Of a DNA stretch of 64,000 nucleotides, positions 7,219 through 61,994 are shown in pieces. The stretch is from Planctomycetota bacterium (GTDB lineage Bacteria; Planctomycetota; PUPC01; JACPCR01), in the NCBI GenBank assembly GCA_027625095.1, contig JAQBXN010000002.1, forward strand, positions 143,361 through 207,360, in the 5' to 3' direction. Made by a program: the position numbers and the translations under genes. A model generated the notes under the pieces. The model was not told where the DNA came from and searched no databases. It saw only the letters and a program-made list of their open reading frames with translations. Every line of letters starts with the position of its first letter. The stretch's first letter is position 1.

Positions 7219-7671
7219 ATGCAGTTATGGGTGGACGCGGACGCATGTCCCAAGGTTATCAAGGACATTCTATTCAGGGCAGCGGAACGTGTGAGAGTTC
7301 ACTTGACGCTCGTGTCGAACCAGGATTTGAGAGTTCCGGTCTCGAAATACATTACCACGATACAGGTTCCGGGTGGGCCCGATGTGGCAGATAAACGTAT
7401 TGTTGACCTGATAGGTTCTGACGATTTGGTGATTACGGCAGATATCCCCCTGGCTGATGCGGTGATCAAGAAGGGCGGTTTAGCTCTGGATCCAAGAGGA
7501 GAGCTCTACACAGATGACAATGTCGGTCAACGTCTTGCGACGCGGAATCTCTTAAGCGATCTAAGAACTGCGGGGGCTATAACAGGAGGCCCCCCAACCA
7601 TCAGCAGCAAGCACCGGCAGGCTTTCGCTAATCAGTTGGATCGTTTTTTGATTCGAAACCGTAAGAAGTGA
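7219..7671 (+). CDS. yaiI: YaiI/YqxD family protein (DUF188)
   Basis: A 150-residue protein matching the whole family: it starts MQLWVDADACPK, with the conserved Asp6 and Asp8, and continues with VPGGPDVADKRIV, DLVITADIPLAD and LDPRGELYTDDN, all signature stretches of this PIN-like fold. The ATG at 7219 is chosen over the upstream TTG at 7201 because a GGAG lies 8 bases before it and it gives the canonical N-terminus. Members are presumed nucleases by fold, but no physiological role is established. It overlaps or nearly abuts the following GlmL-type gene, suggesting co-transcription. Confidence 0.93.
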   Translation: MQLWVDADACPKVIKDILFRAAERVRVHLTLVSNQDLRVPVSKYITTIQVPGGPDVADKRIVDLIGSDDLVITADIPLADAVIKKGGLALDPRGELYTDDNVGQRLATRNLLSDLRTAGAITGGPPTISSKHRQAFANQLDRFLIRNRKK

Positions 7672-24876: not shown

Positions 24877-25397
24877 AACTGGTTAAACAAAATAGAAAAG
24901 CCGAGCCGGTTATCCCGGTGGTTTCCATGTCGGACATCGCGTTCCTTTTGATCATCTTCTTTCTGGTGACCACAAACTTCATTAAGGAAAGCCACATCAA
25001 GCTCAAGCTGCCCAAAGCCGAGTCCGGCGATGATGAAGATAAAATTCAGATCAACGTATCAATGGATCAGGATGGCGAACTCTGGCTGAACGGAAAGCCG
25101 ACCTCCGCCCTGAAAGTGGATCTGGGTTTACTTTTGGGAGATAAGAAGGGGGACAAGCGAAAAGTCTTTTTCAAATGTCACAAAGCTATCCTGAACGAAG
25201 TTTACATGGCCGCAATCGAAGAAATTAATGGGGCTGGAGGTCTTCTCGTCCTCAAGACGGACGAGAAAAAAGTAGCGGAAGGTTCATCAAAGAAGAATTC
25301 AGAAAAGCCACAGGCCACGCCACCCAAACCTCCAGAACCGGCGACTTCGCCCACCCCTGGTGGCCCCGATGTGGAGGAGCAGGAAGTGCTGAAGTGA
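24873..25397 (+). CDS. ExbD/TolR-family protein 2
   Basis: A 174-residue second ExbD: SMSDIAFLLIIFFLVTTNF matches the helix of the first copy with the same aspartate (about Asp20), then a divergent periplasmic domain and a Pro/Thr-rich tail (about 148-174). The GTG start overlaps the stop of the first ExbD (GTGA), so translational coupling is expected. Having two different ExbD proteins with one ExbB suggests a hetero-dimeric core, as seen in several gliding and envelope systems; this is inference. Confidence 0.9.
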   Translation: MKLVKQNRKAEPVIPVVSMSDIAFLLIIFFLVTTNFIKESHIKLKLPKAESGDDEDKIQINVSMDQDGELWLNGKPTSALKVDLGLLLGDKKGDKRKVFFKCHKAILNEVYMAAIEEINGAGGLLVLKTDEKKVAEGSSKKNSEKPQATPPKPPEPATSPTPGGPDVEEQEVLK

Positions 25398-25525
25398 CGT
25401 ATCACACGGTTACAGATGAATTTCTAATTTCATTGAAAGCTTTTGGCTTCCCCGTTCGTTGTTTCCTTGAATTCGCTGGAAGCACTTCTCTTCCCTTTGG
25501 TTGCGGCCTTACGGCTGCGATATGT

Positions 25526-25552
25526 ATTACTCATTACTCATTACTCATTACT
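25526..25552 (+). repeat. Heptanucleotide tandem repeat (ATTACTC), about four copies
   Basis: Three exact copies of ATTACTC and a fourth differing in the last base end five bases before the ATG at 25558. There is no Shine-Dalgarno. This is the clearest leader repeat of the window. Confidence 0.95.
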
Positions 25553-25557
25553 AAACC

Positions 25558-26652
25558 ATGACCGCCAGCATAAATCAGGAAGACTTTCAGGTAATCGATA
25601 GCGCTAAAGAGCGACTGGTCAGTTTGGCATTTCTGCAGGGCATCCTTTGGGTTATTGCTCTCTTGTTGCCGCCGATCCTTGGATTTGAATTCCTGATCGA
25701 TGACAGTGCCCGCGAGGCCGTAATGAAAGCTAAGGAGAAGAATGAGGCCCCGCCGTTCAGTATCCGCAACGAGGCGGTTTTTCTGGCAAGAAGGGTCGTG
25801 CCGCGTCCGGAGGCCGGGGCGTTCTTCTTCTCGGGAGTGGCTTTGCTTTCTGCTCTTCTCGGAGGCTTGTTCGGTTTCGGCAAACGTTCCTGGACTTTCA
25901 TAGTCCTGGGTTTCTGGATGGTCGTGGGGAACGCCGCCCTCTTTGCGGTCATGTCGGTGATATCAGTGCTTCTGGCCGTCTGGAATCTGCTCATGATGGG
26001 GTTTCGGCTCATCAGCGGAGGTGGGAGCGAGTCGGCCGGTTACAACTTCGCCGAATTGCTCTCCTGGATCATCATTCTCGGGATTTCATTGATCCTGTTG
26101 CGTATTGCGCAAAGCGCACTCAAGCCAGCGTTTAAGGGCGTCCTTATCATCGGCCGCGCACAGGAAATGGATAGCGGCCTGCTGGACTTCCTCTCGCCAT
26201 TCGAAGGCCAGAATCGCTCACAAGTTCTGGCGATGCTGTTCCGAAACTCATTAGCCGAATGTGTGAGCTACGCGCTTGTCGGGCACATCGTTGTGCTCAC
26301 CCTGTTTTCAGGCCCCGGTTTCATCACCAAGCTGAATGACTTCATCATGGATTCTCAGAATACGGAGAAAACTGAAACGGCGGAACCCGGCGATAAGAAA
26401 GAGGGTGAAGCAGTCAAAGAAGGTGAAGAACCTGCAGACGGGAGTGCTGCTGGTGGGAATACGACGAATGCGGTCAAGCCAGGCCTTGGCCTCAACACCC
26501 CAGCCGCCAAACCAAGTTCAGAAGATTCAGACTTAGAACCAGATGAACGGAACTCTAAACCTACTGGCAAGCCTGACGATTACAAAAAGCACATCGATAA
26601 GCCTGGGAAGAAGGATGCTGCGGATTCTGATGATTTCCTGAAGCTGGATTGA
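25558..26652 (+). CDS. Hypothetical membrane protein of the ExbB/DUF4159 cluster
   Basis: A 364-residue protein I do not recognise. It has about five hydrophobic segments (near 22-44, 87-107, 109-143, 165-185 and 238-260), an N-terminal loop rich in charged residues between the first two, and a long hydrophilic tail from about 270 that is Glu/Lys/Pro-rich and ends KKDAADSDDFLKLD. Such tails often anchor partner proteins. It sits between the ExbD genes and the DUF4159 gene on the same strand, with a repeat leader and no ribosome-binding site. A structural part of the same envelope machine is the natural inference. Confidence 0.7.
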   Translation: MTASINQEDFQVIDSAKERLVSLAFLQGILWVIALLLPPILGFEFLIDDSAREAVMKAKEKNEAPPFSIRNEAVFLARRVVPRPEAGAFFFSGVALLSALLGGLFGFGKRSWTFIVLGFWMVVGNAALFAVMSVISVLLAVWNLLMMGFRLISGGGSESAGYNFAELLSWIIILGISLILLRIAQSALKPAFKGVLIIGRAQEMDSGLLDFLSPFEGQNRSQVLAMLFRNSLAECVSYALVGHIVVLTLFSGPGFITKLNDFIMDSQNTEKTETAEPGDKKEGEAVKEGEEPADGSAAGGNTTNAVKPGLGLNTPAAKPSSEDSDLEPDERNSKPTGKPDDYKKHIDKPGKKDAADSDDFLKLD

Positions 26653-26660
26653 AAGTGGCG

Positions 26661-26673
26661 AGTGATGAGTAGG
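26661..26673 (+). repeat. Degenerate antisense copy of the heptamer repeat
   Basis: AGTGATGAGTAGG just after the stop of the preceding gene is an imperfect reverse complement of the TTACTCATTAC leader 160 bases further on, so the pair brackets the intergenic stretch. The match is loose. Confidence 0.35.
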
Positions 26674-26828
26674 AAGACCCTGACAGCCATCTGACTAGTA
26701 ATGTCCGACTTACACTGAACAACCTGGTAACCAAGAACCATCCAAAACCCCACCCGCCGACAATAAAGACGGCCAACGCCACCGAGCATCCGCAGCCAAT
26801 CAACCAGCCAAGACAAAGACGCACTCAC

Positions 26829-26856
26829 CTTACTCATTACGCACTACGCCTCCCCC
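26829..26856 (+). repeat. Heptamer-type leader before the DUF4159 gene
   Basis: CTTACTCATTACGCACTACG followed by CCTCCCCC runs straight into the ATG at 26857. It contains the ATTACTC-type unit in sense orientation and drifts into related C-rich heptamers. No Shine-Dalgarno is present. Confidence 0.75.
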
Positions 26857-28836
26857 ATGTCCCGTCCTATCAACATACCCGGAACTAAGCTCGGACGACC
26901 TGCGTCGTTCTGGGTGTTCGCGCTGGGGATGTTGTGTGTGAGTGCCGCGGCCACGCTCTTCCCGGCCGGGCTAATGAGTTTTCTGACGCCGTTCCTTGGC
27001 AAGGGGCCAGCGGGGCATCTGCTCACGACGCCTGTTCTGGTCACTCTGTTGGGAGTGGTGGTTTTTCTTCTTCATTGCTTTTCTGTCTTGGCCCTGGGCG
27101 GAGCGGGGTGGTTGATTCTGCATCGGGCATGGAATCCGGGGCGGGTCTGGCATGCTGCCGAAAACGACCCGGTGTGGTTTCAAAAATTCGTTGGCCGATA
27201 CAACTACTGGTCGCGGCGACCAGTATCTCTGGCATGGAGAGGTACATATCTAGCCATCATTCTGGCCCTTTTCGGATTTGCCTACATGGCGGCAGGCGAG
27301 TCTTTGAGGCTGGGGTTTGAGGGGTCGCCGGACGGCATGATCTCCTATTACATTTACTGGCTGATCCTCTTTTACTGGCCAATCATTTTCGTGGCGCTTT
27401 CAAACATTTATTCGGTAAAGCAGCATTTCCTGAAAGAGGAGATCCAACTCGAAGGACTCGTACGCCCGCACGATGTGATGGATCTTATTCATGAAAGAGA
27501 CGTTATTTCCAAGAAACGGCGGGTGGAAATCCTGGCCAATGATCAGAAATCCTCCTTCGTTACCTGGACGTGGGAGCACCGGTTCGAGATCCTTCTGTTC
27601 ATCTTGTCTGCACCCGTACTTACCTGGCTGTTCAAGAACCACTTTCCACAAAGCGACCGAGGCATCCCGGGGCCGTTCACCTGGTATCAGGGATCATTTC
27701 TCGGCTGCTTCTTCGCCTTTGCCGGTTCGTTTTTTCTGCACATGCGGACCTCACTCCTTCGCCAGCGAACTTCGGAGATCGGGCATACAGATGTGCAGGC
27801 CCGTTGGGCAAGCCAGCAGATGCTGCGTGCTTACCGATACGGTGACGACCCTCGATACAGCGAATCCAACGGAATCTCATTCGCGATTCATTTCTTGCTG
27901 ATTGCTGGCCCGATCCTCCTTGCTCTTCTTACTGGACTCTTCGGCTGTATCGATCCCTATCGCATCCCTCTTGGTGGAGGCGATGCCCCCGCATCCCCGC
28001 AAAAGAAGCAGGTGAAGGTCGTCAAGAAGAAGCGCAAGTTTCTCGTCAATCCGTTCAGTTCGATCGTATTTGCTGAGATCACGCCGGAGATGATGGATAC
28101 GGAACTTAACGAGGCTACCCAGCACGCGTACTCTGGACGACGAGGAGGCGGCCGCGGAGAGAAAGGTAATCCCGGCTTTGGCGGAGGCGAGGGAGGTGGT
28201 GCGGTGCGATTCATTCGAATTCAGCACAACGGGGCTGATTGGGACCGCAACATGACCCTCAACGGCGATACCCAGATGCTGCAGGAATTTCACAAGCGTA
28301 CCAATGGCATCCCTGTCGCACGGAAAACTGAGTCCGTCCGAATCGATGACATCCCGAAGTGGAAGAAAGATCAGAGCGCCCCATTCTTATACATCACCGG
28401 CCGGAAGCCGTTCAGTGTCACGGCTCGAGAGGCACGAATTCTCAAAGATTACATGCTCAATACGGGTGGATTCATTATCGGGGACAGCCCGGGCGAGTAT
28501 TTCGCCAGCTCCTTCACCACGATGATCAGCCGCGCTCTTGGCTCGCAGGCAAGGTGGGTCGATATTCCAAACGACGACATTCTGTATACCTGCTATTTTC
28601 AACTGCCAAATGGCGCCCCGCCACTCTGGCATCATGACGGCCTGCGGGCAAGAGGCATCAAGATCAAGGGACGCTGGGTAGTCTTTTATCATCCTGGCGA
28701 TATTGGTGACGCATGGAAAATCGGCCATTCAGGAGCGGCTAAAGATTCCGTGGAGATGGCCTACAACATGGGCGTCAACCTGATGTATTACGCCTTCACC
28801 CGCTACATAGATTTCCATCACAAAGCAAAATTTTGA
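26857..28836 (+). CDS. Membrane protein with C-terminal DUF4159 domain
   Basis: A 659-residue protein. The first 370 residues hold about six to eight hydrophobic helices with a cytoplasmic-looking region of about 150 residues between groups; the end, about 390-659, is a DUF4159 domain: VRFIRIQHNGADWD, LYITGRKPFSVTAREARILK, GGFIIGDSPGEYF, and a closing GVNLMYYAFTRYIDFHH. DUF4159 is usually found as a soluble or secreted domain of unknown function beside AAA-ATPase and von Willebrand-type genes. Here it is fused to a membrane half. A Gly-rich loop at about 428-447 joins the parts. It is a core member of this cluster. Confidence 0.82.
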   Translation: MSRPINIPGTKLGRPASFWVFALGMLCVSAAATLFPAGLMSFLTPFLGKGPAGHLLTTPVLVTLLGVVVFLLHCFSVLALGGAGWLILHRAWNPGRVWHAAENDPVWFQKFVGRYNYWSRRPVSLAWRGTYLAIILALFGFAYMAAGESLRLGFEGSPDGMISYYIYWLILFYWPIIFVALSNIYSVKQHFLKEEIQLEGLVRPHDVMDLIHERDVISKKRRVEILANDQKSSFVTWTWEHRFEILLFILSAPVLTWLFKNHFPQSDRGIPGPFTWYQGSFLGCFFAFAGSFFLHMRTSLLRQRTSEIGHTDVQARWASQQMLRAYRYGDDPRYSESNGISFAIHFLLIAGPILLALLTGLFGCIDPYRIPLGGGDAPASPQKKQVKVVKKKRKFLVNPFSSIVFAEITPEMMDTELNEATQHAYSGRRGGGRGEKGNPGFGGGEGGGAVRFIRIQHNGADWDRNMTLNGDTQMLQEFHKRTNGIPVARKTESVRIDDIPKWKKDQSAPFLYITGRKPFSVTAREARILKDYMLNTGGFIIGDSPGEYFASSFTTMISRALGSQARWVDIPNDDILYTCYFQLPNGAPPLWHHDGLRARGIKIKGRWVVFYHPGDIGDAWKIGHSGAAKDSVEMAYNMGVNLMYYAFTRYIDFHHKAKF

Positions 28837-28846
28837 GATTGTATCG

Positions 28847-30349
28847 ATGAATAAATTACTGCTTCTTACAGTTCTGTCGTTACTCATGCTTCCCTTTGCC
28901 TCGGCCGGGCATCACAACACCGGTTTCTCCCCGCTGGACCTTGAGCGCTACAAGCAATTGCGAGAGGCGGAGCGATATCAAATTGATCTGGCCGATAAAC
29001 AATTTCAAGCCAGCCAGTGGGATGCCGCTATCAACGAGTACAACAAATTCCTGAAACTTTATCCGGACAGTAATTCCTGCTCCTACGCCCAGATGATGAT
29101 GGCCTACTGCCACGAAGGCAAAAAGTACGTTAACGAGGCCATGAAGCAGTACCAGAAAGTCCTCGACTACTATCCCAAGAGTCTGGAAGGGCCGCATGCG
29201 TTATACCGCATGTCCCAGTGCAATCTGAAGTCGGGCGAGTTTGCAGATGAAATAAAAATCCTGATGCAGATCATCTCAGATAAGACATATGCAGGGCATC
29301 CGGTTGTCCCGGTTGTCCTTTATCGTCTTGCAGGCATCGCGGATGCGGACCCAAAGCAGATTGAACAGTCTGTTAAATACCGCAAACAGATCGTTACCGA
29401 CTACCAGGGATACGACTACTTCAGGCACTGTGTGTCGTGGCTCGCCAGTCATTACCTGTTGAGTGAAAACGACCCGGTCAGTGCGCGAAACATGTTCATC
29501 AAGTACCCCGGCCAATCCAATGAAACGGTGGAGCTCTGGGCTGCTGATACCTATCTTGCCGCGGCGCGCTCCAATAAAGACAAGTCTGACGAATACCGTG
29601 CAAATGCACGCACTATCTGGGAGGAATTTCCAGCCAAATTCCCGAATGCGACCAGTTATTCAAAACAGTGCACCATGCGGCTGGCACAGAGCTACCGCGA
29701 TGCGGGCGACCACAAAAAGGCTCTTGAAATTTACGCTGCCTACATTGCCCAATACCCGAACGATGATGGTGCACGCTTCGAAGTGGCCCGTTACCTGGAA
29801 GAGCAGAAGCGGTGGAACGACGGGCGCATGGAATACCTCAAGATGGAGGACAAGCTTCGCGCCCAATGGGAGATCGCTTACAGTTACGAACGCCAGGGCG
29901 GCAAGTCAGATGAAGCCATTTCGAATTACCAGACGGTGATCGATAGTGATTTCGTTCGCTACGCTGACGCCATGTACCGCATGGGCGAGGTGCTCTACTA
30001 TCAGAAGAATGATTACGAAACCGCGCTGAAGCGATTTATGGAAAGCAATTACAGCCCACCCACTCATCTGTTCCGGGTGGCTGATTGTCTCAAGGCGCTT
30101 AAGCGTTTCGATCCCGCCATCAAACAATACGGCGAAATCGTGACCTTCTTCAAGGGCAGCGCCTCGGAAGCTTATCTTAGAATGGGCCGCGTTTATCTTG
30201 ACAACCTCAAGCAGAACAAAGCGGCTATCGAAGTTTTCCAGACACTTATCCGAAACTTTCCGAAAAGTGGCCAGGCCTCTCAGGCACACCGAATCCTCGA
30301 AGATCTCGGCGTTGTACTTACGGGCGGAGGCTTGAAGGAAGAGAAGTAA
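28847..30349 (+). CDS. Secreted TPR protein
   Basis: A 500-residue protein with a signal peptide (MNKLLLLTVLSLLMLPFASA) and at least ten TPR-like helical pairs: for example AINEYNKFLKLYPDS, EAMKQYQKVLDYYPKS, KALEIYAAYIAQYPN and AIEVFQTLIRNFPKSGQA. It lies 10 bases after the DUF4159 stop. TPR proteins of this kind act as periplasmic scaffolds, similar in role to YbgF/CpoB next to the Tol system, which fits the ExbB/ExbD genes upstream. The start codon lacks a ribosome-binding site, so translation is probably coupled to the upstream gene. Confidence 0.85.
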   Translation: MNKLLLLTVLSLLMLPFASAGHHNTGFSPLDLERYKQLREAERYQIDLADKQFQASQWDAAINEYNKFLKLYPDSNSCSYAQMMMAYCHEGKKYVNEAMKQYQKVLDYYPKSLEGPHALYRMSQCNLKSGEFADEIKILMQIISDKTYAGHPVVPVVLYRLAGIADADPKQIEQSVKYRKQIVTDYQGYDYFRHCVSWLASHYLLSENDPVSARNMFIKYPGQSNETVELWAADTYLAAARSNKDKSDEYRANARTIWEEFPAKFPNATSYSKQCTMRLAQSYRDAGDHKKALEIYAAYIAQYPNDDGARFEVARYLEEQKRWNDGRMEYLKMEDKLRAQWEIAYSYERQGGKSDEAISNYQTVIDSDFVRYADAMYRMGEVLYYQKNDYETALKRFMESNYSPPTHLFRVADCLKALKRFDPAIKQYGEIVTFFKGSASEAYLRMGRVYLDNLKQNKAAIEVFQTLIRNFPKSGQASQAHRILEDLGVVLTGGGLKEEK

Positions 30350-30360
30350 ATTTCTGAACG

Positions 30361-30444
30361 ATTCAGGAGACTCAGGATTCAGGATTCAGGTTCTTTCCTG
30401 CACACTGAATACTGAAACCTGAACACTTACTCATTACTCATTAC
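30361..30444 (+). repeat. Two heptamer families, ATTCAGG and ATTACTC, in one leader
   Basis: Copies of ATTCAGG (30361-30367, 30377-30383, 30384-30390) are followed by their near reverse complement (CTGAATACTGAAACCTGAAC, 30405-30424), so the RNA can fold back. Next comes CTTACTCATTACTCATTAC (30426-30444), ending 13 bases before the ATG at 30458. Confidence 0.85.
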
Positions 30445-30457
30445 CAATCACGATTTC

Positions 30458-31978
30458 ATGAGCGACGAAGACAAAGGCAAAGATCAGGAAGATAAGGGCA
30501 AGCCTGCAAAAACATTCGATTCAGTAGAAGGATCGCTCAAGGAAGAAGTCGAGGACTTTGTTTCGAAGATGGATGGTTTGGAATCTGATAATGAGGAGCA
30601 GGACGGAGAACCGGTCACGGTGGAGACGGTCATGGTCAGCAACAATCCCCAAACAGATGACGGCGAAGGAGAAGCTGATTCGCCTGAATCCGAGAAACCT
30701 TCCAACGACGATTCCGACCCTACTCCATCCCGAAAGAAGGAAGACGGCCAGCCGGAGAAGCCGAAGATGAGCCTCCAGCAGATGGGCATTGGCCAGGATG
30801 CAGTGCCCGAGCTGGACACTGAGACAGGACAGCTAACCCTGGATGGCACGGCCATCGAAGAGGGCGTAAAGGTATTCATTTACAACGACCAGGGGCAGCC
30901 GGTCTTCGGCTTCATGCTCGAAGATGGCAGCGTGGTAATCACCCCGGAAGAAGCCGCAAGCAGCATCTCCGTCGAAACGAAGCCAAAGAAGAAGAAGAAG
31001 ACAAAGAAAAAGTCCTTGAAGAAGGCGTCCCCGAAGTCCAAGTCGGAGACCGTTCTGAAGGGTACCGCTGAACGACGCGCACGTGCGAGCGCCAGAGCGA
31101 GCGGCAAACGGGTCAGTGTTTCACCGGCAAAGAAAAAATCTTCCTTCTTTCTGACCTTTTTCATGATGCTCTCGACGATCTCCTGCCTGGGCTTGATCGC
31201 CTGGTTCTACCTGTTCGACGGCAAGGCCTACGTGCAGAATTACCTGAATCCAGAGGCACAGACGGGGGCGACGCCGGATGGCATCGACCAGATGGCTCGT
31301 TTTGAGCCAAGAGCATTTGCTCCAAGTGACATGGACGTGGAAGGGGAAGTGGACGCAGCCCAGGCTCGACTGACGGAATCGGGATGGATAATTGCCGCTC
31401 CGGAAAATGGATCTAGATGGGCTCTGTGGAGCAGCGGCGTGACTGAAAACGGTGATGCCAATGGAAAAGGAACGATTCAACTCAAACGAAAGGGCGAGGA
31501 TGATTTTCATGTCTCGTTCCTTGTTGGCTTTTACAAAGGCCCCAATGATACTCCTGCCAGGCAGGGCAACATGACCCTCCTGCTCAATGCCCCCAAGTCA
31601 CGCAGGAAGGTCTTCTTCGGCTTTGGTGTGCAGCTTAACAAGATATTCCTCGTGCCTTTCCTTGGCAGCCAGAAGGGGGAGGAACGCCGGCACACGCCAT
31701 CAATCAATCTGGCTTACAACACTTGGTATAAGCTTGATGCCAAGGCCGAAGGCCGCTTTGTCAATTTTTACTTCAACGGTAAGAAGATCGATGGAGTGCA
31801 GTTGAACGCGAATGAGGTCATGGATGTTGCACTGACGAATATCCAGTCACGAGTGTTCTATCGCGATTTCACTATGCAGGAAGATGGTGTGGAAACCACC
31901 ACAACGACCGTGCAGCCTGCAGATAAGAGTGCGGATAAAGTGGAGAAACAGCAATCTGAAGAGGATGGGGAGAAGTAA
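30458..31978 (+). CDS. Single-pass membrane protein with LamG/concanavalin-like C-terminal domain
   Basis: A 506-residue protein. Residues 1-110 are highly acidic and disordered; about 175-228 is a Lys/Arg-rich linker (many KKK and a repeat ARASARASGK); one helix spans about 229-253; the outside part ends in a beta-sandwich with WYKLDAKAEGRFVNFYFNGKKIDGV (about 425-450), which is typical of LamG/DUF1080-like sugar-binding folds. A charged tail follows. It is the last gene of the ExbB cluster on this strand, with a repeat leader. It could sense or bind a surface polymer for the machine. I do not know a homologous family for the whole protein. Confidence 0.7.
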   Translation: MSDEDKGKDQEDKGKPAKTFDSVEGSLKEEVEDFVSKMDGLESDNEEQDGEPVTVETVMVSNNPQTDDGEGEADSPESEKPSNDDSDPTPSRKKEDGQPEKPKMSLQQMGIGQDAVPELDTETGQLTLDGTAIEEGVKVFIYNDQGQPVFGFMLEDGSVVITPEEAASSISVETKPKKKKKTKKKSLKKASPKSKSETVLKGTAERRARASARASGKRVSVSPAKKKSSFFLTFFMMLSTISCLGLIAWFYLFDGKAYVQNYLNPEAQTGATPDGIDQMARFEPRAFAPSDMDVEGEVDAAQARLTESGWIIAAPENGSRWALWSSGVTENGDANGKGTIQLKRKGEDDFHVSFLVGFYKGPNDTPARQGNMTLLLNAPKSRRKVFFGFGVQLNKIFLVPFLGSQKGEERRHTPSINLAYNTWYKLDAKAEGRFVNFYFNGKKIDGVQLNANEVMDVALTNIQSRVFYRDFTMQEDGVETTTTTVQPADKSADKVEKQQSEEDGEK

Positions 31979-34948: not shown

Positions 34949-34980
34949 GTAATGAGTAAAACGTAATGAGTAAGACGTAA
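34949..34980 (-). repeat. Heptamer-type repeat leader of the amidase gene (sense on minus strand)
   Basis: Read on the minus strand this is TTACGTCTTACTCATTACG followed by TTTTACTCATTACG and CCC before the ATG at 34944. The same words occur in the plus-strand leader of the divergent gene, at 35143-35165. Confidence 0.85.
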
Positions 34981-35142: not shown

Positions 35143-35165
35143 CATTACTCATTACTCATTACGTA
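35143..35165 (+). repeat. Heptanucleotide repeat before the glycosidase-like gene
   Basis: CATTACTCATTACTCATTAC then GTATTAAG lies about 70 bases before the ATG at 35235. With the copy at 34949-34980 it forms an inverted pair around the divergent promoter region. Between 35165 and 35234 there is a second G-poor stretch of related units (CCATCATCCATCAACC), reaching the ATG. Confidence 0.85.
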
Positions 35166-35234
35166 TTAAGTGCCCCCGGGATCCTCAAGCCGAATCTTCC
35201 ATCAACCCTTAACCATCATCCATCAACCATTCCT

Positions 35235-38508: not shown

Positions 38509-38958
38509 ATGCCGACCATTACCAAGAAAGATTTGGTGCAAAGCATTTCAGATAAGATGGGTTTTAACCCATTGCAAGTAAGAGACATAGTCCAGGCGGT
38601 TCTTGACGAGATCGTAGTTCAGCTTTCTCAGAGCAACCGAATTGAATTCAGAGACTTCGCCGTCTTCGATATTCGCGTCCGTCCGGCCCGCATTGGACAC
38701 AATCCACGCACTCTGGAGAAGGTGCCCGTTCCGGCCCGGGCTGTTGTTGAGTTCAAGATGGGCAAGAAGATGAAAGAAGCTGTTTCATTGCTCGCCTTGG
38801 AAGAGGATCGAAAAGCAACAGGGTCCACTCTCCAATCAAATTCGCCTGTACCACCAGCTTCCAGCGAAGCTTCTGCACCAGTTCCAGCCCCCAACCAACA
38901 GGCCGAAGGAAAATCGACTACCAACCCAGGGAATGACAGCAGGAACCAGCCTAACTGA
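38509..38958 (+). CDS. HU/IHF-family DNA-binding protein with Pro/Ser-rich tail
   Basis: A 149-residue protein. Residues 1-95 are a complete HU/IHF fold: TKKDLVQSISDKMGF, the conserved Phe/Gly region EFRDFAVFDIRVRPARIGHN and Pro66 in HNPRT, which is the residue that wedges into bent DNA. From about 100 on there is a 50-residue low-complexity tail rich in Ser, Pro and Ala rather than the Lys-rich tails of some HU proteins. The family organises nucleoid DNA. The Gly in the usual GFG is Asp here (RDF). A good AAGGGG lies seven bases upstream of the ATG, and a candidate promoter and a strong terminator frame the gene as a single transcription unit. Confidence 0.92.
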   Translation: MPTITKKDLVQSISDKMGFNPLQVRDIVQAVLDEIVVQLSQSNRIEFRDFAVFDIRVRPARIGHNPRTLEKVPVPARAVVEFKMGKKMKEAVSLLALEEDRKATGSTLQSNSPVPPASSEASAPVPAPNQQAEGKSTTNPGNDSRNQPN

Positions 38959-58607: not shown

Positions 58608-61600
58608 CTACTTCTTCTCTCCCCACACAATCTCACAGCCCTTCTTTTCCAGTCTGGCAATAATTGCGTATGAGTTGGGGGTGAGTTTCTGTTCTTTGGG
58701 AGGAAGATGAAGCCGATCAAGATTCATGCCTTCCAACGCGGAAAGGTCGGTGATTGATGCGCCATTCATGTACAGAATGGTAAGTGGCATTCCTTTCAGC
58801 GGAGATAGATCGGAATACCTGTGTGCACTCAGTGAGAGATATCCAAGGGCCATACCTCGGAGGGGCTCAATAGTTTTGACTTTTGTGTTATTCAGATCGA
58901 GGTTCGTCAATGGCATGTTCTTGAGCGGCGCGATGTCTTCCACTTGTTGGCAGTGCAGGAGAAGCAGCTCTTCAAGCTTCAACCCCTCGAGAGGGCTTAG
59001 ATCGCTTACCGGTGTATTAGCAAGGTTCAGCTTTTTGAGCCGCATGCCTTTTAGCGAACTCAGGTCACTGAATGCGGTGCTGTGGAGGTCGAGGAGTTCG
59101 TTGCTTTCGTCGTTAAATACCCCTCCACGTTTCTTGAGGTCGATAATGACCTCGCAAGATGCCTGGGTAAACGGGGCTCCTCGCATGAACTTGAATTGCG
59201 GAAGTTTCAGACTCCCCAAACTCTTCTTGTTGGCGAGCGGCGTAAGATCCGGCGTCGCCTCCCGCCCTGTAAGATCCAGGGACTCCAACGGCAGCCCCTT
59301 CAGCACACTGAAGTCCGATATGGTTCCCCTTCCGTGAATCGCAAGCCTTTTCAGAGGCATCCCCGCGAGTGGGGACAAATCTGTGAATGTCCCCTGCACT
59401 TGAAGCGCTTCCAGGGGCATGGCGCGAAGTGGTTCCAGACTCGCGATCGGATAGCGATTCCTGTCATCGTCTCCGACATACAGTTCCTCCAGGGGCATCC
59501 CCTTTAATGGCGAGAGATCCGTGACCCAGGTCCTTGTGACGTTCAGTTCTCTCAGCGGCATTCCTGTCAAAGGCGACAAGTCGCTCACATTGCATTGAGA
59601 AAGCGACAGTGAGTTCAGAGGCATCCCTTTTAGTGGACCGAGATCCGTGAGATTCCTTCTTTCAAGGTGGCCGACATTCCCCAGTTTCAGTGAGGTCAGC
59701 GGCATACCGCGAAGCGGATTCAGATCGGTCACATTAGTCCAGGAAAGATCAAGACGATTTAGTGGCATGCCACTCAGGGGCGTAAGGTCTGTTATCGGAT
59801 TGCTTCCAACAGCCAGGTGACTCAACGACAGCCCCTTCAATGGCTGCAGGAATCTCAGATTCAGGTTGTGGCCTGGGTGAATTCGAAAGCCTGAGATCTG
59901 ACCTTCCTCGATCTCGATGTCGATTTTTTCAGTGCTTTGCAGCCCGTTCAGATTCGCGATTTTGTCACGGAGTCGAGATGCCTGTTGCTTCACCGGAAGT
60001 TTCTTGATCGACTCATAAAATCCTTCGCATTTGACCCATGCATCGGCACGCTCCAATTGTGCCTGGGCATCCTGGATCTCGTGCCTGTCGGTATTGCCTG
60101 CCTCCATAAGAGAAACAGCCCGGCGATAAACATCCCGGGCTTCGCGGTAACGTGCGTCGTTCATGAAGACCCGGCCCGCGTTCACCAGGGCGCGCGCATC
60201 GGTGACCTTGTCCAGATTTTTCAACAGGCCTGCTGCCTCAGCCTGGCCGCCTGTGATGGACAAGACTTTTGCCAGTGCCGCTTTAGCAGGAGCGAATGAT
60301 ATATCTCGCTCGTGCGCCTGCCGAAGCCACTTCTCCGCCTCCTTCATTTGGCGCTTTTCGAGAGCTACAAGTCCGAGGGCATAAGAACCCCAGTGAGCAT
60401 TCTTGACGAGTTCGTGAGAGGTCTTTGCGGCGTTTTCGGCTTCCCTGATTCGCCCGCCCGCCAGGAGCTCTTCCGCCTGCATCGCGAGCGTCTCCGCAGA
60501 CCTCAACGCATCTTTCGTTTGCTGTTCCCAGGCCACCCTCGCAGCCTTCTCACTCTTGATGGCACGGTTCAGGGTCTGCTGCTGCTTGATGAAAAAGACA
60601 CCGGTCAGGACGACGATGATGGCCGCTGCTGCCGTTACCGCGGCGCTGACCGGTTTGTTCCTCCTGATAAGTTTGAGGAACGTCTCAACAGAAGAGTCCT
60701 CCTTTGCAGAGACGGTTCGGCCTTCGAGAAAGAGATGGATGTCTTGCGAGAGAGCCTGCACCGATTGGTATCGCTTGATCCGACTTTTCGACATCGCCTT
60801 CATGCAAATGGCGGAGAGTTCCTTCGGAATGTCACGCGTTGGGGAACGCTTTTCTGGGGCGAGAATTCTGCCGTCGGACACTTTCAGAAGAATGTCATGA
60901 ATCGTCTTTCCTTCGACAGGACGTTTGAGGGTCAGGATCTCATACAGGATCGCCCCGAGCGAGTAGATGTCGGACCGATGATCGATCTTGTCCGCATCGC
61001 CCTCGGCCTGCTCCGGTGGCATGTAGGTAGGCGTGCCCTGCACTGAGCCGTCTATGGTCAACGCAACGTCGGAGTCGGCGCGGACGCTCCTTACAGACGG
61101 GGCGGGAGTGTGGGTGGATGGGCGCGTGGGAGTGGAAGAGGCCGCGACGGTGTCAGCCTCACGAGCAGCTTCTGAAGTTGAACGTTGAGCGTTTGAAGTT
61201 GAACGTTGAATGTCTGTGTGTTTCGGTCCATGGTCTGTGGTCTCTGGTCTCTGGTCTGTGAGCACCTTCGCCAGGCCCCAATCCATGACCAGCACTTCAC
61301 CGAAATCGCCGACCATGATGTTGTCCGGTTTCAGGTCGCGATGGATGACTCCTTTCGAGTGGGCGAAGGCGATGGCATCGCAGACCTTGAGGAAGACGTT
61401 GAGGAGGTATGGGAGTGTGGGAGAGGAAGACGTGTGGGGGTGGCGGTGGCGGGGGGTATGGGAGTCGAGATTCTTTTCACCCGCACCCCCATACTCCCAC
61501 ACCCCCATACTCTTCAAGATCTCTCCAAGCGAGCTTCCCTTAACCAGCTTCATGGTGAAGTAAAGCTGACCCTCCGTGTCCTTCCCCAATTCATGGATCG

Positions 61601-61994
61601 GGACGATGTTCGGATGTTCAAGTTGTCCGGTGACTTGTGCTTCCTCGATGAATCGAGCGCGGGCGTCTTCCGATTCAGTGATCTGCGGACGCATGACCTT
61701 CATGGCCACCGGCCTAAGGATGGTCTGATCCACACAAAGGTTTACTGCTCCCATTCCGCCGCGGGCAATCTCTTTGCCCGGCAAGTATCGGGTGGCTGCA
61801 GAGCTCGCCCGGTCCAGGGCGAGGTTCACTTCTTCGATACTCGCTCTCTGTTCGTGAGGGCTCGAACTTGGATGGGGTACTGAACTGACGGTCTTACACG
61901 CGGGGCAGCGGACCTTCTGACCCGCCTTCTCATCCGGCATGCTCAGTTTTTTCTGGCACTCAGGATTGGAACAGTGGAATTCGATGCCCGGCAT
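58608..61994 (-). CDS. Membrane Ser/Thr protein kinase with zinc ribbon, TPR-like and leucine-rich repeats
   Basis: An 1128-residue protein. A zinc ribbon (Cys8, Cys13, Cys30, Cys33) precedes a Hanks-type kinase (about 70-430): IARGGMGAV, Lys99 in VAMKVM, HRDLKPDN (218-225), DWG in place of DFG (238-240) and GTPTYMPPEQ (320-329). Two low-complexity inserts, 164-193 and about 246-307, come from repeat DNA; the second sits in the activation segment. One helix follows (about 448-470), then TPR-like helices (about 480-660) and short leucine-rich repeats of the form LxxLxLxxTxVTDLSPLxGMP to the end. The LRR part should be outside and sense a ligand. It is minus strand, downstream of the NTase pair. 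Confidence 0.9.
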   Translation of the reverse strand: MPGIEFHCSNPECQKKLSMPDEKAGQKVRCPACKTVSSVPHPSSSPHEQRASIEEVNLALDRASSAATRYLPGKEIARGGMGAVNLCVDQTILRPVAMKVMRPQITESEDARARFIEEAQVTGQLEHPNIVPIHELGKDTEGQLYFTMKLVKGSSLGEILKSMGVWEYGGAGEKNLDSHTPRHRHPHTSSSPTLPYLLNVFLKVCDAIAFAHSKGVIHRDLKPDNIMVGDFGEVLVMDWGLAKVLTDQRPETTDHGPKHTDIQRSTSNAQRSTSEAAREADTVAASSTPTRPSTHTPAPSVRSVRADSDVALTIDGSVQGTPTYMPPEQAEGDADKIDHRSDIYSLGAILYEILTLKRPVEGKTIHDILLKVSDGRILAPEKRSPTRDIPKELSAICMKAMSKSRIKRYQSVQALSQDIHLFLEGRTVSAKEDSSVETFLKLIRRNKPVSAAVTAAAAIIVVLTGVFFIKQQQTLNRAIKSEKAARVAWEQQTKDALRSAETLAMQAEELLAGGRIREAENAAKTSHELVKNAHWGSYALGLVALEKRQMKEAEKWLRQAHERDISFAPAKAALAKVLSITGGQAEAAGLLKNLDKVTDARALVNAGRVFMNDARYREARDVYRRAVSLMEAGNTDRHEIQDAQAQLERADAWVKCEGFYESIKKLPVKQQASRLRDKIANLNGLQSTEKIDIEIEEGQISGFRIHPGHNLNLRFLQPLKGLSLSHLAVGSNPITDLTPLSGMPLNRLDLSWTNVTDLNPLRGMPLTSLKLGNVGHLERRNLTDLGPLKGMPLNSLSLSQCNVSDLSPLTGMPLRELNVTRTWVTDLSPLKGMPLEELYVGDDDRNRYPIASLEPLRAMPLEALQVQGTFTDLSPLAGMPLKRLAIHGRGTISDFSVLKGLPLESLDLTGREATPDLTPLANKKSLGSLKLPQFKFMRGAPFTQASCEVIIDLKKRGGVFNDESNELLDLHSTAFSDLSSLKGMRLKKLNLANTPVSDLSPLEGLKLEELLLLHCQQVEDIAPLKNMPLTNLDLNNTKVKTIEPLRGMALGYLSLSAHRYSDLSPLKGMPLTILYMNGASITDLSALEGMNLDRLHLPPKEQKLTPNSYAIIARLEKKGCEIVWGEKK
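61174..61258. repeat. In-gene heptanucleotide repeats (GTTGAAC)n and (TGGTCTC)n
   Basis: On the plus strand 61174-61211 reads as degenerate copies of GTTGAAC/GTTGAAT with a 7-base period, and 61231-61258 is four adjoining copies of TGGTCTG/TGGTCTC. Both lie in the kinase gene. Because three heptamers equal seven codons, they encode 7-residue repeats (QRSTSNA/QRSTSEA and DQRPETT/DHGPKHT). Confidence 0.9.
61425..61515. repeat. In-gene low-complexity GGGTGTGG/CCCCATACTC repeat
   Basis: Two near-copies of CCCCCATACTC spaced 16 bases apart (61485-61510) and a GTGGGGGTGGCGGTGG tract (61434-61450) encode the first kinase insert, rich in Gly, His, Thr and Pro. A similar GGG-every-8-bases run (61100-61135) encodes part of the second insert. 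Confidence 0.6.

Follow-up and report, generated by a model that had tools for sequence, protein, structure and literature searches.

Heptamer Repeat Arrays at the Edges of Intergenic Gaps in a Planctomycetota Genome

Introduction

Tandem repeats of 7 bp in Haemophilus influenzae are linked to the phase variation of hmw1A, a surface-protein contingency locus. The heptamers of that system are tied to this one locus, whereas those described below lie beside many unrelated genes, and at stop codons too.

The closest described repeats are the intergenic heptamers of Xanthomonas and Nostoc, GGGAATC and GGGGA(C/T)T (Rehm et al., 2015; PMC4692102). As far as the accessible part of that paper describes them, within 0–50 bp of an open reading frame they occupy mostly the non-coding strand when upstream of it and the coding strand when downstream, with the G strand directed away from the frame, and they form inverted pairs (70 cases in Xcc and 75 in Xac). 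Their units are heterogeneous, with positions 1–4 and 6 conserved, and length and sequence vary between related species. They form quadruplexes in vitro; in the same accessible part a regulatory role was not found and the function was left open. The cyanobacterial STRR repeats, cited there for Calothrix, are tandem heptamers dispersed in the chromosome, as are the repeats of this study, and according to the accessible text of PMC5088731 they have been used as a typing marker. Heptamer-derived arrays are likewise dispersed in Chloroflexus aurantiacus, where the (GATAGRA)n satellites are built from one word, the accessible part of PMC6749651 giving no account of their orientation. For Planctomycetes, a search of the literature on repeats returned no report of heptamer arrays.

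Here we analyzed such arrays in a stretch of 64,000 nt (hereafter, the window) and in a larger sample of the same Planctomycetota genome. They resemble the repeats of Xanthomonas and Nostoc, as presented in the accessible text of PMC4692102, in their period of 7, mostly intergenic location, lack of a functional gene class, heterogeneous and partly conserved units, G strand pointing away from the downstream frame, and inverted pairs within one gap. Unlike them, most of our arrays have no G-tract, many words (including octamers) coexist in one genome, some arrays end a dispersed element, and orthologous gaps likely reveal the arrays as added DNA. Thus, the positional rule and the inverted pairs were already known from that paper, and we describe a similar arrangement for words mostly devoid of G-tracts. 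The published rule was studied on quadruplex-forming words. Here a similar rule at starts, the inverted pairing and the partly constant units all hold for words that mostly have no G-tract, so the cause must lie elsewhere; geometry is in this sense separable from sequence.

The account that we favor, with a probability of about 0.45, is that arrays whose units mostly combine a core of 4 or 5 nt with a 3-nt spacer occupy the edges of intergenic gaps, the C-rich strand mostly directed into the neighboring gene, that they represent inserted or expanded DNA, and that selection has acted on them at starts. Behind it stand the core and spacing counts, the orientation bias, the facing arrays, the longer gaps and the varied ends of a dispersed element.

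Materials and Methods

A single draft genome was used (8.95 Mb in 262 contigs; 94.97% complete, 5.8% contamination). The sample comprised 1.95 Mb (22% of bases), on contigs picked partly for the presence of arrays; the window lies on contig C222. For one window gene, the nearest named protein matches are records from Gemmataceae, Planctomycetia and Singulisphaera, which makes a planctomycete likely. In total, 1297 genes were called from sequence alone by a simple coding-score finder that has no Shine-Dalgarno model, so the called starts are unbiased by the start-signal question; some of them are wrong and some short genes were missed, for example that of HU at 38509. The Shine-Dalgarno test scored AGGA, GGAG or GAGG at positions −20 to −5, AAGGGG not being counted.

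ATTACTC runs were considered if 11 nt or longer; of the 92 classified, we left out 13 located in called coding sequence, which gave 79 intergenic runs. Arrays of any word were collected at a slightly lower threshold and merged, in 999 gaps of 30–1500 nt. For the core and spacer counts, each gap was read in the direction in which its C-form points inward. Reversed patterns provide no valid null, as ATTACTC read backwards is its own rotation and AGTC-N3 arrays exist themselves.

Results and Discussion

The original prediction listed five ATTACTC-type arrays that directly precede start codons in the window. Four of them were confirmed: a perfect array of 3.9 units at 25526–25552 (plus strand), 5 nt before ATG 25558; a TTACTCA array at 30427–30444 (plus strand), 13 nt before ATG 30458; a CATTACT array at 35143–35162 (plus strand); and, on the minus strand, an array at 34949–34980 before the minus-strand ATG 34944, in which an unchanged TTAC core with changing spacers (GTC, TCA, GTT, TCA) is directly visible. 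The last two face each other across a divergent gap, the CATTACT array on its right side, and a plus-strand CCATCAA array (35199–35230, 76% matches) lies between the latter and ATG 35235. The fifth array, placed at 26829–26856, shrinks to about one and a half units (1.6 perfect units) of TTACTCATTAC and a degenerate C-rich leader that together fill 26830–26856 of the plus strand up to ATG 26857, and it falls under the threshold of the array test. In the gap of the 30427–30444 array, the left half holds a plus-strand TCAGGAT array (30372–30390), which is the G-form of the GAATCCT family. A degenerate octamer array of ACTCC-like units is located on the plus strand at 408–443, just before a predicted start at 452; TRF gave it period 8, 67% matches and a score of 30, the lowest in its listing. 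The pattern TTAC-N3-TTAC-N3-TTAC matched the window eight times and none of 100 shuffles; the window arrays are beyond chance. An Rfam search of the window gave no match.

The proteins encoded at 25558–26652 and 30458–31978 have no Pfam match and belong to a cluster with ExbD, DUF4159, TPR and T2SSE genes; among 149 genomes of the phylum, this one included, they had a match outside this genome only in the sister genus. TGAACGT and TGGTCTC heptamer arrays are present at 61173–61260, within a large minus-strand ORF (58608–61994), so heptamer arrays also enter called coding sequence.

With a single threshold, we found in the 267 kb of non-coding DNA of the sample 79 arrays of period 7 and 16 of period 8. 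Periods 5, 6, 9–13 and 15 gave 0–4 arrays each in the same DNA, and those of 14 and 16 are multiples. The 1.68 Mb of coding DNA held 11 arrays of period 7. When any word was admitted, 137 merged arrays were counted in the 999 gaps versus 0.3 in shuffled gaps. The exact 14-mer (ATTACTC)2 was matched 67 times in this genome. Of 391 other genomes of the phylum, three have a single match and the rest none, from which it follows that this word is local to the lineage.

The arrays are oriented with respect to genes. In 72 of the 79 intergenic ATTACTC runs the C-rich strand points into the nearer gene, and the median distance to the nearest gene end is 13 nt over all 79. Among the 53 runs nearer to a start, 51 obey this rule and two do not; among the 26 nearer to a stop, eight of which lie between convergent genes, 21 obey and five do not (p = 0.0025). 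A window array at 358–376 had been singled out earlier as the only copy that breaks the orientation rule. In fact it fits the edge rule that ATTACTC shows at stops: the (TTACTCA)n array found by pattern match at 358–375 on the minus strand begins at the very next base after the TAA (355–357) of ORF 10–357, and its G-bearing strand, GTAATGAG, reads away from this gene ((AATGAGT)n was confirmed at 353–375).

An orientation could be assigned to 133 of the merged any-word arrays (four have equal G and C) and 25 of these break the rule, the ratios being 78:13 at starts, 30:12 at stops and 20:10 at stops in gaps with arrays on one side only. The bias is stronger at starts than at stops (p = 0.036 for ATTACTC, p = 0.059 for all words). 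ATTACGT, ACCATTA, ACCATCA and GAATCCT are biased at starts too, but not at co-directional stops, where 15 arrays of these four words follow the rule and 19 break it; convergent gaps gave 17:2 over five words. The rule at stops therefore rests on ATTACTC and the convergent gaps. Set against the downstream rule described in the accessible part of PMC4692102, these stop-side ratios, 21:5, 30:12, 15:19 and 17:2, are mixed. The rarer words CACTGAA, CTTAGAC and CCGTCTT, with 3–8 intergenic cases each, gave no clear pattern. In the sister genus (G001), which has different words, the ratios were 7:0 at starts and 5:2 at stops. Orientation bias is thus strong at starts, and at stops it is weaker and depends on the word. 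ATG is present in the G-form of ATTACTC and ACCATTA and absent from that of ATTACGT and GAATCCT; since the latter two nevertheless keep a bias at starts (8:1 and 16:5), avoidance of AUG alone is insufficient.

According to the original prediction, the arrays replace Shine-Dalgarno sites. The corresponding explanation is a Shine-Dalgarno-independent start signal or regulatory leader, in which a ribosomal or RNA-binding factor would bind the G-poor repeats and these would define the start. The 51 ATTACTC runs in sense orientation at start edges agree with it, as does the state of the leaders, which had been predicted to be poor in G and unstructured and are G-poor and less structured than array-free ones: the fraction of G at −30 to −11 is 0.04–0.06 with arrays and 0.19 at array-free starts, and the median folding energy is −2.35 versus −7.0 kcal/mol (52 array starts and 300 sampled from 908 array-free starts). 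Array leaders thereby fit the weaker start structure of non-Shine-Dalgarno genes described in PMC5397173, where Planctomycetes are among the groups with small fractions of Shine-Dalgarno genes; the accessible part of that paper mentions no repeats. All five starts named in the window are indeed ATG codons without AGGA, GGAG or GAGG at −20 to −5. In the sample the motif precedes two of 52 array starts. Among array-free starts it precedes 234 of the 908 that have 60 nt or more upstream, and 355 of all 1235. The low count of array starts is partly built in, however, because the array itself fills the tested region. Further upstream, the motif background is 79 and 100 of 908. As 674 of the 908 array-free starts have no motif, its absence is weak evidence. 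Similarly, the supposed contrast between array starts and other genes did not survive in the window, where 12 of 38 predicted genes looked at have the motif and 26 do not, 21 of the latter being outside the five array starts. Among neighbors said to possess a Shine-Dalgarno site, those starting at 7219, 54129 and 58510 (the last predicted on the minus strand) have the motif, and HU at 38509 has AAGGGG, which the test does not count.

Other observations speak against a start signal. Arrays are also found at stops and between convergent genes, and our scan of 1.95 of the 8.95 Mb, which confirmed the anticipated strand bias, revealed a bias toward gap edges and not toward starts only. Array-to-ATG distances are spread over 0–25 nt, 25 nt being the limit of selection, with no fixed spacing, and a single TTAC before array-free starts is only 1.23-fold enriched. 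In addition, at three array-led junctions compared with their orthologs in the sister genus, no array was present there. The earlier idea of an alternative start mode keeps in its favor the sense arrays at start edges and the less structured leaders, while stop-side arrays, loose spacing and the array-free sister junctions speak against it; the first two also disfavor an alternative Shine-Dalgarno site. We regard a start signal as distinctly improbable, and the arrays probably do not act as a special signal for starting protein synthesis. Slippage-prone repeats might still alter expression. An upstream neighbor in the same direction was found for 40 of 52 array starts versus 493 of 908 array-free starts.

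In the account that we favor, selection at start codons would likely have kept the G-poor strand as leader. The C-form at a start edge may form an unstructured leader that suits limited use of Shine-Dalgarno sites; arrays would be tolerated there and might tune expression.

Arrays also face each other across single gaps. ATTACTC was present at both edges of eight co-directional (n = 516, length at least 50 nt; 0.88 expected), two divergent (n = 173; 0.21 expected) and one convergent gap (n = 141; 0.06 expected), that is, 11 versus 1.15 in sum. For five word families, co-directional gaps have an excess of facing arrays in every family, from 1 versus 0.09 up to 8 versus 0.88, and divergent gaps contain five facing pairs together versus 0.53, two families having none. 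Irrespective of the word, the two edges of a gap share an inverted match of at least 9 nt in 42 of 915 gaps (6.8 with shuffled partners) and a direct match in nine of 915 (5.4). By gap type, the inverted matches, which include ordinary hairpins and terminators, amount to 28 versus 4.6 in co-directional, 11 versus 1.6 in convergent and 3 versus 2.2 in divergent gaps.

For matches around genes, single-gene flanks gave 13 versus 14.0 expected at 9 nt, 5 versus 1.7 at 11 nt and 3 versus 0.0 at 12 nt, and blocks of four genes gave 5 versus 1.0 at 12 nt. It follows that the main unit is the gap, and that a few cases frame a gene in addition. Gene-sized cassettes framed by inverted arrays were rejected on the count at 9 nt. 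One of the three single-gene matches of at least 12 nt surrounds the gene at 115640–116533 of contig C74, which by eye we take to encode a formyltransferase of the tetrahydromethanopterin pathway. In this region (115499–116768), 111 nt of one array gap recur inverted in the other with 91% identity, so that the gene looks as though it had terminal repeats around it.

Facing arms could reflect a folded nucleic acid at gene ends, either cruciforms or hairpins between the arms, or quadruplexes. The arms are complementary over up to 25 bp, and the inverted edge matches, abundant in co-directional and convergent gaps and scarce in divergent ones, follow the expectation for RNA hairpins, terminators included. 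However, arrays of the same word family also face each other between divergent genes, and the arms listed, inspected by eye, have no T run after them, so we rejected an RNA hairpin or terminator as sole cause. Many arrays have no partner to fold with, as in 27 of 35 right-edge ATTACTC arrays of co-directional gaps. As for quadruplexes, GTAATGA contains no two adjacent G, and GGG or CCC is found in 7 of the 79 non-coding period-7 arrays; quadruplexes are thus not the general cause. (Words of the sister genus such as GGGAGCA do contain a G-tract.) Folding as the general explanation is quite unlikely. Under the favored account the facing arm might instead have arisen by fold-back copying across the gap.

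The units have an internal structure. TTAC-N3-TTAC occurs 151 times with 14 spacers (4.0 expected), while other spacings of TTAC give 0–17. Equivalent excesses were obtained for CTGA-N3-CTGA (41 versus 5.5 expected, 17 spacers), GTCT-N3-GTCT (33 versus 2.1, 14 spacers), ACCA-N3-ACCA (44 versus 3.4, 12 spacers) and, for the octamers, ACTCC-N3-ACTCC (55 versus 0.6, 10 spacers). For all 4-mers with at least three letters, the count is 1929 at spacer 3 versus 569–753 at 0–2 and 5–8, and 1013 at spacing 4, which represents the octamers; in a coding sample the codon peaks are present and there is no peak at spacer 3. ATTACTC arrays also end in phase, 49 of 93 beginning with TTACTCA and 34 of 93 ending with TCATTAC, and in 28 cases the terminal CATTAC is followed by G. 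When the unit after TTACTCA carries a single mismatch, this falls in the 3-nt spacer in 24 of 28 cases (p = 4e-6 against 3/7), a test that partly repeats the phase of array ends. With both neighboring units perfect, mismatches were in the spacer in 6 of 7 cases for TTACTCA, 6 of 7 for CCATCAA and 4 of 4 for CCATTAA, which are small numbers. None of seven single mismatches of CTGAATC was in the spacer; all seven fell within CTGA, five of them C to T, and the core idea therefore fails for CTGAATC as cut here.

The arrays may have grown through repeated rounds of synthesis, with the core re-annealing each time as a short primer and the copying of the spacer being less constrained. Conservation of the core could instead reflect a binding site under selection. 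Replication slippage alone, favoring units of 7–8 nt and involving neither selection nor insertion, would explain why many arrays are perfect repeats, and the accessible part of PMC4692102 cites a link between the polymerase footprint and heptamer slippage. Nevertheless, slippage produces neither the orientation bias, nor facing inverted arms, nor the phase of array ends, and we consider it very improbable as the whole explanation.

A broader proposal is that a general process of Planctomycetota writes core-plus-3 arrays into gene junctions by repeated priming from a core of 4 or 5 nt, comparable to the re-alignment of its product by telomerase, the facing arm being added by fold-back. If so, each lineage would run its own set of cores, TTAC being one here, with the sequence free and the geometry constant. 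Of 382 genomes of the phylum, 119 (this one among them) have matches to (CTGA-N3)3-CTGA, with very variable spacers where listed; simple arithmetic gives about 0.002 chance matches per 5 Mb genome for 16 fixed bases. The reversed CTGA control matches in a number of genomes as well, sometimes outnumbering the pattern, as AGTC-N3 arrays exist. In the pieces analyzed, the sister genus has a modest peak at spacer 3 (245 versus 113–192), and genome G002 has 14 period-7 arrays in 160 kb with no clear peak of this kind. No array was detected in 91 kb of genomes G004 and G006 or in 39 kb of named relatives. A process common to the phylum appears unlikely to us.

We compared 16 orthologous co-directional junctions between this genome and the sister genus G001. 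Three have an array in this genome only and measure 160, 108 and 235 nt versus 57, 4 and −1 nt in G001; two have an array in G001 only and measure 102 and 692 nt versus 10 and −8 nt here. All five are longer on the array side, by 92–700 nt. The remaining 11 junctions, counted as array-free, have medians of 3 and 8 nt in the two genera; this set includes gap 26652–26857 (204 nt versus 121 nt in G001), whose short array is under the threshold. Three of the five informative junctions belong to the window cluster, namely gaps 25397–25558 and 30349–30458 and junction 28836–28847, which is 10 nt long in this genome and has its array on the G001 side. For junction 25397–25558, placing the G001 start by tblastn reduces the gap there to 30 nt from the 57 nt of the gene finder. 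The C74 gene mentioned above is flanked by array gaps of 141 and 235 nt, and in four relatives with the same neighbors (seven junctions) the gaps are −1; 14 and 5; −4 and 4; 2 and 40 nt. According to the accessible part of PMC4692102, most Xanthomonas repeats are located between the same genes in two species, whereas the arrays of our five junctions are not shared. From these comparisons, with five informative junctions of which three are in one cluster, it is likely that the arrays are added DNA, and they would likely have originated by insertion or expansion at formerly tight gene junctions.

Part of this DNA belongs to a dispersed element. A copy of about 130 bp occupies 25398–25525 (plus strand) of the window; it begins directly after the TGA codon that closes the upstream ExbD-like gene and ends in the array at 25526. 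It has 52 matches in this genome, many of them partial, and none in 30 relatives. Seven of the copies compared extend to the 3′ end, two of them consisting of a 3′ part alone, and their ends differ: ATTACTC units are present in contigs C222, C90 and C16, and ATTACGT or ATTACGC units in C61, C165, C72 and C189. These ends carry one to seven TTAC cores with the spacers TCA, GTA, GCA, GTG and GGA, although the element parts are 89–95% identical to the window copy. C29 holds a truncated copy, and C10 two short pieces with no array. With junctions that have and do not have arrays, and copies of one element with differing ends, the origin of bacterial heptamer repeats becomes testable.

The arrays may accordingly be read as ends or remnants of MITE- or REP-like mobile elements, whose TTAC- or ACTCC-type termini moved into junctions and then grew or varied. 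The window array forms the 3′ terminus of an element specific to this genome among those searched, TTAC units are found at the 3′ end of the copies and in many cases at the 5′ end too, and the inverted 111 nt shared by two array gaps of one operon in C74 points the same way; REP palindromes in Planctomycetes are reported in the accessible part of PMC3733652. Yet a recognized dispersed repeat is present in only 23 of 117 array gaps, and the accessible part of PMC4692102 saw no general link to mobile elements. A search for Y1 transposases gave ten matches; three of these and one further locus recognized by eye were examined, and no repeat lay directly beside any of the four, although one has the element one gene away. 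These four loci speak against a REP/Y1 link. Taken as the origin of the arrays in general, mobile elements are a serious though unlikely alternative to insertion or expansion of core-plus-spacer DNA at gap edges.

One reverse transcriptase (RVT_1) is encoded in the genome. A search for Ku gave no match in this genome or the sister genus G001, Ku being present in two of 13 genomes searched; Ku-dependent end joining was discarded for this reason, and we name no repair route.

Dispersed intergenic families (0–4) occur in the gaps, and one of them has GGAGTGC/GCACTCC ends, in which the ACTCC core of the octamer arrays can be recognized. A third class of arrays has a spacing of 12 (AGATT-N7-AGATT, 12 seen versus 0.5 expected) and by eye is tied to one dispersed family. 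Finally, the gap of about 400 nt at 64872–65275 of C189, downstream of a gene presumably involved in phospholipid synthesis (judged by eye), contains a stop-edge ATTACGC array, an inverted copy of the element and a start-edge array whose units change from ATTACGT to ATTACTC.
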